NCBI GenBank assembly: GCA_012520615.1
Contig: JAAYNX010000203.1
Coordinates: 1-32,402, forward strand
Direction of reading: 5' to 3'
Source: Clostridiaceae bacterium
GTDB lineage: Bacteria > Bacillota > Clostridia > DSM-8532
Length of the DNA stretch: 32,402 nucleotides
In this document: piece by piece, positions 7,335 to 27,057 of the stretch
Position numbering within the stretch: position 1 is the first letter of the stretch
Layout: each line of letters starts with the position of its first letter
Notes under the pieces: generated by a model
Databases searched by the model: none
What the model was told of the DNA's origin: nothing
The model's input: only the letters and a program-made list of their open reading frames with translations
Position numbers and translations under genes: made by a program

Positions 7335-8255
7335 ATGGAACTTGGATTCTTAACTGTATGTCTTGGAAATATGCCGCTAAAAGAAAAAGCAAAATGGGCT
7401 GGTGAAAACGGGTTTAAGGAATTAGAGGTGGCATGTTGGCCAAAAAGCAATACCCGTGACTATTCCTCCTGTGATCTCGATGTAGAAAATTTCACAGAGC
7501 AAGATGCGAAAATAATAAATGAGTATTTAAAAGAATATGGACTTACCATATCTTCTCTGGCTTACTATGATAATAATCTTCACAAAGACCTAGCCAAGCG
7601 CACTTTAATTAATAATCATGTTAAGAAATGTATTGATGCTGCAAATATGCTCGGAGTTCAGGCAGTAGGCACTTTTACAGGCAGAAACATTGATAAGAGT
7701 ATTAAGGATAATTTTGACGAGTTCGAAGTAGTATTTAAAGACCTTATTTCATATGCAGAGAATAAAGGCGTTCGTCTGATGATAGAAAACTGCCCAATGG
7801 AAGGATGGCAAGCGGCTGGACAACCTGGGAACATCTCTTTTACTCCCGAATTATGGGAAGAAATGTTTAGAAGGATTCCAAGCAAAAATTTTGGTCTTAA
7901 TTTTGACCCATCCCATTTATTGTTTCAACTTATAGACTATATACCACTGATAGAGAAATTTAAGGATAGAATATTTCATGTTCATGCTAAAGATTCAGAG
8001 GTTTATCAAGATAAACTTAAATACTACGGTGTTTTTAATTGCCAGCTAGGCGGTCATAACGAGGGCTATTGGAGATTCCGTATGCCGGGATTAGGCCAGG
8101 TTGACTGGGAAAAATTCTTAAAGGCGCTAGATGATATAGGGTACAACGGAGTTGTTAGTATCGAACATGAAGACCCTTTATACGAAGGAAGCGAAGAAAA
8201 AGTAAAAGAAGGTTTGATTATCGCCAGAAAGCATTTAGAACAATATATGAAGTAA
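7335..8255 (+). CDS. Sugar phosphate isomerase/epimerase-like TIM-barrel protein
   Basis: A 306-residue protein of the xylose isomerase-like / AP endonuclease 2 superfamily. The likely metal ligands are Glu151 (MIENCP), Asp191 (NFDPSH), His217 (HVHAKD) and Glu277 (SIEHED), in the order expected for this barrel. It is the last gene of the LacI-led transcript, 31 bases after the dehydrogenase, with AAAGGGG upstream of the ATG. Pairing with a Gfo/Idh/MocA enzyme is common in cyclitol, rare-sugar and 3-keto-glycoside pathways. It may isomerise, epimerise or perform a metal-assisted elimination on the dehydrogenase product. No kinase, transporter or glycosidase accompanies the pair. Confidence 0.87.
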   Translation: MELGFLTVCLGNMPLKEKAKWAGENGFKELEVACWPKSNTRDYSSCDLDVENFTEQDAKIINEYLKEYGLTISSLAYYDNNLHKDLAKRTLINNHVKKCIDAANMLGVQAVGTFTGRNIDKSIKDNFDEFEVVFKDLISYAENKGVRLMIENCPMEGWQAAGQPGNISFTPELWEEMFRRIPSKNFGLNFDPSHLLFQLIDYIPLIEKFKDRIFHVHAKDSEVYQDKLKYYGVFNCQLGGHNEGYWRFRMPGLGQVDWEKFLKALDDIGYNGVVSIEHEDPLYEGSEEKVKEGLIIARKHLEQYMK

Positions 8256-8275
8256 AGACTCACATGTAAAATATA

Positions 8276-8490
8276 GGGCCTGCCTAAAAACTATTTATAC
8301 AATGATAAATGAATCCAATTTTTGACTTAGTTTGAACCGCAGTAGATGTCATGTGTGGAGCGGAGCATGGATTGCGGAGCGCCGCGAATAATTTCCGGAT
8401 GAAATTCCTGAGCGGCACACATGACATCTACTAGAGGTTCGGCTGTTGAATTCATAGCAGTGTAACAGCAAAATAGTTTTGAGACTGCCC
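8276..8490. repeat. 215-bp imperfect inverted repeat, MITE-like or large hairpin element
   Basis: The whole interval between the convergent isomerase and rubrerythrin genes folds on itself. The outer ends match inverted: GGGC plus 6-7 variable bases plus AAAACTATTT at 8276-8296 and its complement at 8471-8490. A middle block pairs at 8309-8318 and 8446-8455 (9 of 10). A perfect 17-bp arm, AGTAGATGTCATGTGTG, lies at 8341-8357 with its complement at 8416-8432. The roughly 58-base loop holds smaller hairpins and is more GC-rich than the surroundings. No reading frame fills it. Ends starting GGGC with (T)CTCAAAA-like sequence recall transposon termini, but no clear target duplication is seen. It could also act as a bidirectional terminator. 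Confidence 0.72.
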
Positions 8491-8504
8491 TTGTGTATTA
8501 AGAT

Positions 8505-9098
8505 TTAATAAGTTTCAACAAACAATTCAAAGTGAGCTTGAGCATGTGCGCATGCAGGGCAAAGATCTGGAGCTTCCTCGCCTTCATGTATATATCCGCA
8601 ATTTCCGCATTTCCAGAATACCTTACCGTCTTTTTTGAATACAGTTCCATCCTCTATATTCTTAGCTAATTTATTAAAACGGATCTCATGCTTTTCTTCG
8701 GCAGAGGCAATGCTTCTATAAACCTGTGCTATTTCCGGGAATCCTTCTTTATCTGCAATATCAGCAAATTGCGGATATAGAATGCTCCATTCCTCATTTT
8801 CACCATGGGCAGCAGCCTTGAGATTATCAAGTGTTGTACCTTGAGCTACAGGAAATCCGGCTTGAATTTCAATGTTTTGAGGCAATTCACCATCGAAGCC
8901 TGCCAGCAAGAATTTAAAGAATCTTTTTGCGTGTTCCTTTTCGTTATCAGCTGTTTCACTGAAAATATTTCTAATCTGCTTATAACCCTCTTTATCCGCA
9001 ACAGAGGCATAGAAATTGTAACGATTTCGTGCCTGAGACTCACCTGCGAAGGATTTCATTAGGTTTACTGCGGTTTCTGTTCCTTTTAAGCTTTTCAT
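8505..9098 (-). CDS. rbr: Rubrerythrin
   Basis: A 197-residue protein with an N-terminal ferritin-like diiron domain (Glu20 in AGESQARNRY, the Glu53-x-x-His56 pair, and a second E..EEKH element near residue 130) and a C-terminal rubredoxin-like domain with two Cys-x2-Cys knuckles (CGNC and CPAC) for one iron. It reduces hydrogen peroxide in the cytoplasm of anaerobes, using electrons from rubredoxin or NADH-linked carriers. Length matches classical rubrerythrin. A strong TAGGAGGTAAAT site precedes the ATG. It is monocistronic, with its own promoter at 9130-9158, and the hairpin element ends 14 bases after its stop. Confidence 0.96.
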   Translation of the reverse strand: MKSLKGTETAVNLMKSFAGESQARNRYNFYASVADKEGYKQIRNIFSETADNEKEHAKRFFKFLLAGFDGELPQNIEIQAGFPVAQGTTLDNLKAAAHGENEEWSILYPQFADIADKEGFPEIAQVYRSIASAEEKHEIRFNKLAKNIEDGTVFKKDGKVFWKCGNCGYIHEGEEAPDLCPACAHAQAHFELFVETY

Positions 9099-26240: not shown

Positions 26241-26975
26241 ATGAACAATACAAGTCACGAGTCGTCCTTGGATTTGGTTAAAAGGGCTCAAAACGGCGAT
26301 GTAGATGCACGTAATGCCCTTATAGATAAAAACACGGGATTGGTTTGGAGTGTCGTACGAAGGTTCAGAAACCGAAATGTTGAAACTGAAGATCTTTTTC
26401 AAATAGGTTGTATAGGTCTTATTAAGGCTGTCGACAAATTTGATTTGTCCTTCAATGTCCAATTTTCAACTTATGCAGTACCAATGATACTCGGTGAAAT
26501 CCGTAGATATTTCAGAGATGATGGAATTATTAAGGTCAGCAGAAGTTTGAAAGAATTATCAATAAAAGCCAGAGATATAAGCGAGAAGCTGGAGCAGGAC
26601 ATGGGAAGGCCACCCAGTATTAAAGAGTTGGCTGAAGCACTGGGGGAGGAGCCTGAAAATGTTATTCACGCTATGGATGCTTCACGTACTCCCGAATCAC
26701 TGTTTAAGGAATACGATGACGAGGATGGTTCAGAAAACCGACTAATAGACAGAATAGTATCACAGGACAATGATAGGGAATCGGAAACCGTGGAAAAGAT
26801 ATCACTTTATAGTGCATTAAAGCAACTCCCAAGACGTGAAAAAGACCTTATATGGATGCGCTATTATTCAGGAGAGACACAGCAGAAGGTCGCTCAAAAA
26901 CTGGGCATTTCACAAGTCCAGGTATCTAGGCTAGAAAAAAAGATTCTAGAGCTGTTAAAAGGAATGCTTAATTAG
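26241..26975 (+). CDS. sigF: RNA polymerase sigma factor SigF (SpoIIAC)
   Basis: A 244-residue sigma-70 family factor, the first forespore-specific sigma factor. Region 2 is clear: EDLFQIGCIGLIKAVDKFD, then FSTYAVPMILGEIRRYFRDD near residues 75-95. Region 3 includes VSRSLKELSIKARDISEKL, and region 4 ends with an HTH (GETQQKVAQKLGISQVQVS). Third gene of the operon, eight bases after spoIIAB. The ribosome binding site is weak (TAGGTAGG), which suggests translational coupling with spoIIAB. Its presence marks the organism as a spore former. No clear terminator follows in the 82 bases before the convergent neighbour. Confidence 0.97.
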   Translation: MNNTSHESSLDLVKRAQNGDVDARNALIDKNTGLVWSVVRRFRNRNVETEDLFQIGCIGLIKAVDKFDLSFNVQFSTYAVPMILGEIRRYFRDDGIIKVSRSLKELSIKARDISEKLEQDMGRPPSIKELAEALGEEPENVIHAMDASRTPESLFKEYDDEDGSENRLIDRIVSQDNDRESETVEKISLYSALKQLPRREKDLIWMRYYSGETQQKVAQKLGISQVQVSRLEKKILELLKGMLN

Positions 26976-27057
26976 TGCCTAATAATTCGGTGATTATGTA
27001 AACATTAGTAAGCAGTGTATAATGATAGTTTTCCCACAGTCTGTTTTAGCATAATTA

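Follow-up and report, generated by a model that had tools for sequence, protein, structure and literature searches.

A MITE-like structured element, probably inserted in an intrinsic terminator between convergent isomerase-like and rubrerythrin genes of a Clostridiaceae bacterium

The window analyzed here is the whole 32,402-nucleotide stretch of contig JAAYNX010000203.1, from a Clostridiaceae bacterium whose draft genome we call G000; 13 congeners, G001–G013, were compared with it. A sugar isomerase-like gene and a rubrerythrin gene converge in this window on a 215-bp inverted repeat, the features of which are listed in Table 1. The initial annotation had described this repeat as three paired blocks that almost exactly fill the space between the two stops. 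Both descriptions were borne out, as the gap from 8255 to 8505 consists almost entirely of this structure, and the outer arms, the middle block, and the 17-bp stem were each found at the positions given for them. The predicted fold of 8276-8490 has a free energy of -75.3 kcal/mol, compared with a mean of -51.0 kcal/mol (SD 4.3) for 200 dinucleotide shuffles, none of which was equally stable (0/200, z -5.6). The 215-bp inverted repeat is real but, in the best reading, composite, with the arms of a terminator outside and a mobile repeat inside.

Table 1. Features of the convergent gap, with positions in the window
Feature	Position	Strand	Sequence or pairing	Remarks
Sugar isomerase-like gene (xylose-isomerase-like TIM-barrel protein)	stop at 8255			Convergent with the rubrerythrin gene
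215-bp inverted repeat	8276-8490			Fills most of the gap between two convergent stops
Left outer arm	8276-8296		GGGCCTGCCTAAAAACTATTT	Putative half of a pre-existing terminator hairpin
Subfamily A dispersed element	8297-8469	+		~173 bp, ends uncertain by several bases
P0 left arm	8309-8318		ATGAATCCAA	Pairs with 8446-8455
Subfamily A core	8334-8440	+		107 bp; main repeated unit; covariance model match, 87 bits
P1	8334-8338/8436-8440		GAACC/GGTTC	Part of the subfamily A core
P2	8341-8357/8416-8432		Perfect 17-bp stem	Part of the subfamily A core
P3 hairpin	8359-8380	+	AGCGGAGCATGGATTGCGGAGC	Stems GC/GC and GCA/TGC; 3x3 internal loop GNA/GNA; loop NGGAT
P4 hairpin	8383-8414	+	CGC/GCG, AATTTC/GAAATT	Tandem G-A internal loop; pentaloop CGGAT
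P0 right arm	8446-8455		TTGAATTCAT	Partner of 8309-8318
Right outer arm	8470-8490		AAAATAGTTTTGAGACTGCCC; minus strand, GGGCAGTCTCAAAACTATTTT	Starts ~15 nt past the rubrerythrin stop
Rubrerythrin gene	ends 8505			Opposite neighbor of the repeat, convergent

The inner part of the repeat is dispersed through the genome. BLAST with the 215 bp yielded 20 matches in G000, namely the repeat itself and 19 other places, and many of the good matches span positions 59-165 or 59-187 of the query, corresponding to the GAACC...GGTTC core. Most good copies of this core are 80-93% identical. Longer likeness was seen at locus L002, which is 80% identical over window positions 8300-8485, and at L004, which is 82% identical over 8287-8438. 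A further 19 BLAST matches were present in G001, while those in other congeners were partial and confined to the inner stretch. A covariance model (CM) of the inner fold described below gave 25 matches in G000, spread over many contigs, and its counts for the congeners were 50 in G001, 47 in G011, 28 in G010, 19 in G005, 14 in G013, 7 in G003, 3 in G007, and 1 in G006; neither the five remaining congeners nor 27 less related genomes held any. When 391 genomes of the class were searched with the CM, with fewer candidates scored per genome, congeners alone matched and the ~380 others did not. Within this sample, the superfamily is thus confined to a single genus, where its patchy spread points to gain and loss. 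As expected of a MITE, the element is short (a 107-bp core in ~173 bp), non-coding, and multicopy, with its 25 CM matches lying in unrelated places. After removal of duplicates, the gaps holding copies were convergent in 20 cases, tandem in 40, and divergent in 5. No match of the element was found in the plasmids, phages, or viral contigs searched.

The copies fall into three subfamilies with unlike outer stems and a common inner part: subfamily A, to which the window copy belongs, has GAACC/GGTTC; subfamily B has GGTGCC/GGCACC; and subfamily C has AGCGGC/GCCGCT. A fourth form, D, is present in Gracilibacter and Peptococcaceae MAGs. Alignment of the inner 70 nt of 30 A, B, and C copies defined a shared fold made up of the top of P2 followed by hairpins P3 and P4. 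The consensus of P3, AGC-GNA-GCA-NGGAT-TGC-GNA-GC (also GCGNAGC-ANGGAT-TGCGNAGC), is nearly invariant across subfamilies and phyla except at its N positions, and its pairs never vary in the 30 copies. The consensus of P4 comprises CGC/GCG, a tandem G-A internal loop, and a stem capped by the pentaloop NGGAY, which reads C[NGGAY]G over the copies and CGGAT in the window. Pairs in P4 and P2 do change on both sides, in 76 cells compared with 29 in shuffles (0/500), with slid controls giving 4-39 cells. In the P4 helix at 42-47/53-58 of A2, four of six pairs changed on both sides and 90% of cells were paired; helix 1 was only 63% paired because the pairing of subfamily B is offset by one position.

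Such a fold bears on the suggestion, also made in the initial annotation, of a processed RNA. More broadly, the repeat could be an immobile structured RNA held by selection, whether a regulatory or processed RNA or a bidirectional terminator, and the very stable fold, the paired changes across subfamilies, the recurrence of P3 across phyla, and the frequency of convergent gaps are all consistent with this. Paired changes are, however, not proof of selection, since template switching in DNA palindromes, as in quasi-palindrome repair, could also produce them. Nor did the other evidence favor an RNA. Rfam at gathering cut-offs gave no match for the window element, for the A, B, C, or D loci, or for the Kuenenia and gamma loci discussed below. 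G-T and A-C departures from pairing were about equal as distinct events (40 vs 34, p 0.56), which gives no clear indication that one RNA strand is under selection; counted by cells, an excess of G-U over A-C had appeared (104 vs 56), and it was discarded on the count of distinct events. A strand bias relative to tandem genes, apparent in the redundant set, likewise disappeared once duplicates were removed (23 vs 17). The core is without a terminator-like site, and the copies are patchy, dispersed, and nested. The processed RNA is therefore not supported, and we consider an immobile RNA of any of these kinds a distinctly improbable account of the repeat.

Movement could be followed in subfamily C. 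Its copies in G000, G007, G011, and G013 are bounded by CAGACTGTGCGAAAACT and its complement; this end has 37 matches in G000, where the backwards control has none. Full-length C elements measure ~215 bp; those of 84-124 bp appear to have lost internal sequence. Both ends were present in 22 copies, and in 8 of these the 4-mers on either side were identical, against an expectation of 0.4-0.8 (0/5000 shuffles); no such excess of identity was seen at lengths 2, 3, 5, 6, and 7. These 4-mers were centered on CG in 15/22 copies on the left and 13/22 on the right, indicating the target NCGN. At locus L007, a C element is nested in an A element and flanked left and right by TCGA, and taking out the C insert restores the A core, which then aligns end to end at 91% identity. 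The inverted ends, the 4-bp NCGN duplications, and the nested copy together prove that subfamily C is a transposable element, which is mobilised whole and duplicates a 4-bp NCGN target on insertion. In the draft genomes of six congeners, where C ends up to 400 bp apart were joined into pairs, no transposase gene was seen within the pairs or next to an end. The suggestion that the repeat is a MITE was largely upheld for the interior, as regards multiple copies, patchy distribution, and a sister subfamily with ends and duplications; the parent transposon that went with it was not found by the C ends in these six genomes. We also note a lone C end, CAGACTGTGGGAAAACT, on the minus strand of the window at 27027-27043, just after a sigma-factor-like gene that stops at 26975; no matching partner turned up within 400 bp of it.

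For subfamily A, the copies keep a left module, GATAAATGAAT, and a right module, ATTCATAGCAATGAC, and the ATGAAT/ATTCAT modules are common to the A copies of G000 and G001. The aligned-flank scan established neither sharp ends nor a target duplication for this subfamily; when applied to A and B for target duplications, it returned shared-repeat artefacts only. As the flanks of A gave no duplication, we infer its mobility, and subfamily A would have moved in a way comparable to C. At L189, a direct repeat of ~31 bp (AGAAACCTTGCAACCGCTTCATTACGTTTAC) flanks an A core and is followed by half a core, which is a local tandem duplication.

The outer arms of the window repeat have a separate history in our reading, and several observations tie them to rubrerythrin. 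The 21-mer of the right arm occurs a single time in G000 and was not found in G001, G011, or G007, with up to three mismatches allowed in each search. When joined, 8276-8296 and 8470-8490 form a single hairpin in computed folds of the rubrerythrin strand, with a free energy of -22 to -24 kcal/mol. The rubrerythrin orthologues of G002, G007, and G011 are each followed, within ~20 nt 3', by a simple terminator hairpin free of the element. That of G007 reads GGGCTGTCTCAAAA, where the window has GGGCAGTCTCAAAA at the equivalent place, and GGGCNGTCTCAAAA is present at several repeat-free sites, including this G007 terminator. Putative empty sites, for which the initial annotation had suggested looking, are the rubrerythrin terminators of these three relatives, though the gene next to rubrerythrin, on the opposite side of the terminator, differs between G000 and its relatives, so that the empty site is deduced from the terminator and not from full synteny. 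Given the element-free orthologous terminators, the unique arm, and the joined-arm hairpin, the outer block is best read as a split terminator, the two arms being the putative halves of the rubrerythrin terminator parted by the element. This split terminator is probably still working as a long hairpin. No terminator-like site was found in 8150-8620, and the repeat itself has neither a U-tract nor a terminator signal. The bidirectional terminator proposed in the initial annotation therefore holds good for the outer arms, which resemble a rubrerythrin terminator, and not for the repeat between them. In G001, the rubrerythrin terminator (L132) has its own inserted hairpin in the loop, at first sight unrelated to the window element.

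A different division of the locus would make the whole 215 bp mobile, with the outer arms as its terminal inverted repeats. The A copy L002, likewise located in a convergent gap, carries outer arms of faint similarity (GGGCAATTTAAAAC ... TTTTGAGACAATTC), a likeness that would in principle allow the arms to be ends of the element. Against this, the flanks of most other A copies, namely L004, L164, L016, and L011, are unrelated, the 21-mer is unique in G000, and GGGCNGTCTCAAAA stands at sites free of the element. We rejected the outer arms as element ends on the last two grounds, and regard a mobile unit of 215 bp as unlikely.

The explanation we favor, at a probability of roughly 78%, is that a non-autonomous, MITE-like structured element of ~173 bp inserted in the intrinsic terminator between the isomerase-like and rubrerythrin genes. 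The element would have landed in the terminator hairpin, parting it into the two outer arms. The enzyme acting in trans may have been a DDE-type transposase, which would leave inverted ends and the 4-bp NCGN duplication of subfamily C; the label "DDE-type" is used here because of that duplication and those ends only. Such a transposase would have come from elsewhere and would now be lost or unrecognised here. A palindromic element of this kind most likely settles in places that can bear an insertion, mainly 3' of genes, and its P3/P4 fold may be kept through recognition of the folded strand, as single-stranded DNA or RNA, and not through coding content. Small structured repeats account for a noticeable share of the DNA between bacterial genes, and only in a few cases is it clear if the fold serves movement or rides along. 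Subfamily C offers a defined donor and a defined target (NCGN) for a transposition assay, and in the window a terminator has probably been split by an element of this sort, with an effect on the two convergent genes that could be measured.

Hairpins of this kind also call to mind two candidate protein partners. Motifs of the GCGNAGC kind form very stable DNA mini-hairpins, and HUH transposition is not known to leave 4-bp target duplications like those of subfamily C. As an intergenic repeat rich in hairpins and with two GCGNAGC motifs, in a genus where several members have RAYT-like genes, the element might be of the REP/REPIN type, moved by a RAYT (a Y1 HUH transposase) as folded single-stranded DNA. 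However, Y1_Tnp is absent from the repeat-bearing G000, G003, and G013 and present in G002 and G004, which have no copies, and the G001 RAYT has an unrelated repeat, GGGGTCAGGCTTTTGA, on its flanks. We rejected the RAYT link because Y1_Tnp presence does not track copy number and because of this unrelated flanking repeat, and the target duplications of subfamily C further argue that transfer by a RAYT is very unlikely. The repeat unit, at least 107 bp, is also larger than the 20-40 bp of REP units (PMC3733652). In G001, the RAYT-like Y1 transposase gene lies at L127 1315-2470 between inverted copies of GGGGTCAGGCTTTTGA.

The second candidate partner is CsrA, whose sites carry GGA in hairpin loops. 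The P3 loop, ANGGAT, and the P4 loop, C[NGGAY]G, resemble such sites, and the element could serve as a decoy or binding site for CsrA/RsmA through the GGA of its two loops. Yet four of the five genomes richest in copies (G000, G001, G011, and G005) lack PF02599, the CsrA family, and congeners without copies do have it. CsrA binding was rejected as the main role in the genus on the strength of these absences, unless a CsrA-like protein has gone unrecognised, and we give it almost no credence. CsrA is missing from 4/14 congeners overall, these same four and thus including the repeat-richest, perhaps through coincidence or motility loss.

The P3 hairpin extends beyond the genus. With the search pattern GCGNAGCANGGATTGCGNAGC, for which the backwards control gave 0 matches, we detected 10 matches in a Gracilibacter genome, 7 in a Peptococcaceae genome, 9 in a Kuenenia-labelled MAG, and 1 in Sulfuricaulis (at most one mismatch). 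Another four matches came from 2 of ~370 further gammaproteobacterial genomes, and each of three genomes from another family of the phylum had 10-14. MAGs are named here by the titles of their records, and the gammaproteobacterial class follows that of the Sulfuricaulis record. The recurrence may reflect shared ancestry, horizontal spread, or convergence. P3 is accompanied elsewhere by NGGAN-loop hairpins inside outer stems, and outside the gammaproteobacteria these stems have a mean length of 19-23 bp with 1-2 mismatches and a sequence that differs from copy to copy. It is conceivable, although we would put the odds somewhat against it, that the P3/P4 module (GCGNAGC-ANGGAT-TGCGNAGC plus an NGGAN-loop hairpin) is a portable structure read by a widespread factor as folded single-stranded DNA or RNA. 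If true, mobile palindromes of Clostridia, a Kuenenia-labelled planctomycete MAG, and gammaproteobacteria would share one apex on freely changing stems. The combination of different outer stems with one inner double hairpin gives a testable handle, as the module could serve as bait to capture its reader. In the Peptococcaceae MAG, a group II intron at L275 2541-2795 (RF02005, 146 bits) lies close to a D-type element.

Among known systems, the RUP, BOX, and SPRITE repeats of Streptococcus pneumoniae are short intergenic Firmicute repeats that fold tightly, with their ends paired; they are commoner between convergent genes and insert into one another, and RUP, of ~107 bp, has inverted ends and target duplications (PMC3049150). 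The window family is likewise folded, intergenic, and nested, with 20 convergent against 5 divergent gaps and no strand bias. Unlike those repeats, its subfamily C makes a 4-bp NCGN duplication and its inner fold spans subfamilies and phyla, and we claim no shared sequence. In the Bacillus cereus group, the repeats bcr1-bcr18 include the MITE-like bcr1-3 as well as bcr10 and bcr18, which have conserved RNA folds (cited in PMC3446304). These too are families of intergenic repeats, but the hosts are others, and the GCGNAGC/NGGAN module is not among the bcr features noted from that source. The GTAG/CGTC-tagged REP elements, of which the GTAG ones are linked to RAYT, are palindromic and intergenic with several families per genome, as here, and measure 20-40 bp (PMC3733652); the window family differs in its size of 107-215 bp, in having no RAYT link, and in the 4-bp duplications of subfamily C. 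A catalogue of stem-loop repeats in the 40 bacterial genomes known in 2008 includes many of 31-200 bp, with Clop-1 and Clot-1 from clostridia (PMC2267715), and the likeness to our family, as intergenic stem-loop repeats, is by description and not by sequence. In general habit, the window family resembles BOX/RUP/SPRITE and bcr, without evidence of relation. Searches of open-access literature found no description of the repeat family, which is weak evidence of novelty as subscription papers and repeat databases were outside this search. Finally, a second abundant short palindromic repeat, AGATTCTTCGCTTCGCTCAGAATGACA, together with its variants, was seen beside many copies in G001 and G011 (e.g., L180 and L096); it often adjoins A, B, and C copies and has apparently been amplified together with them.
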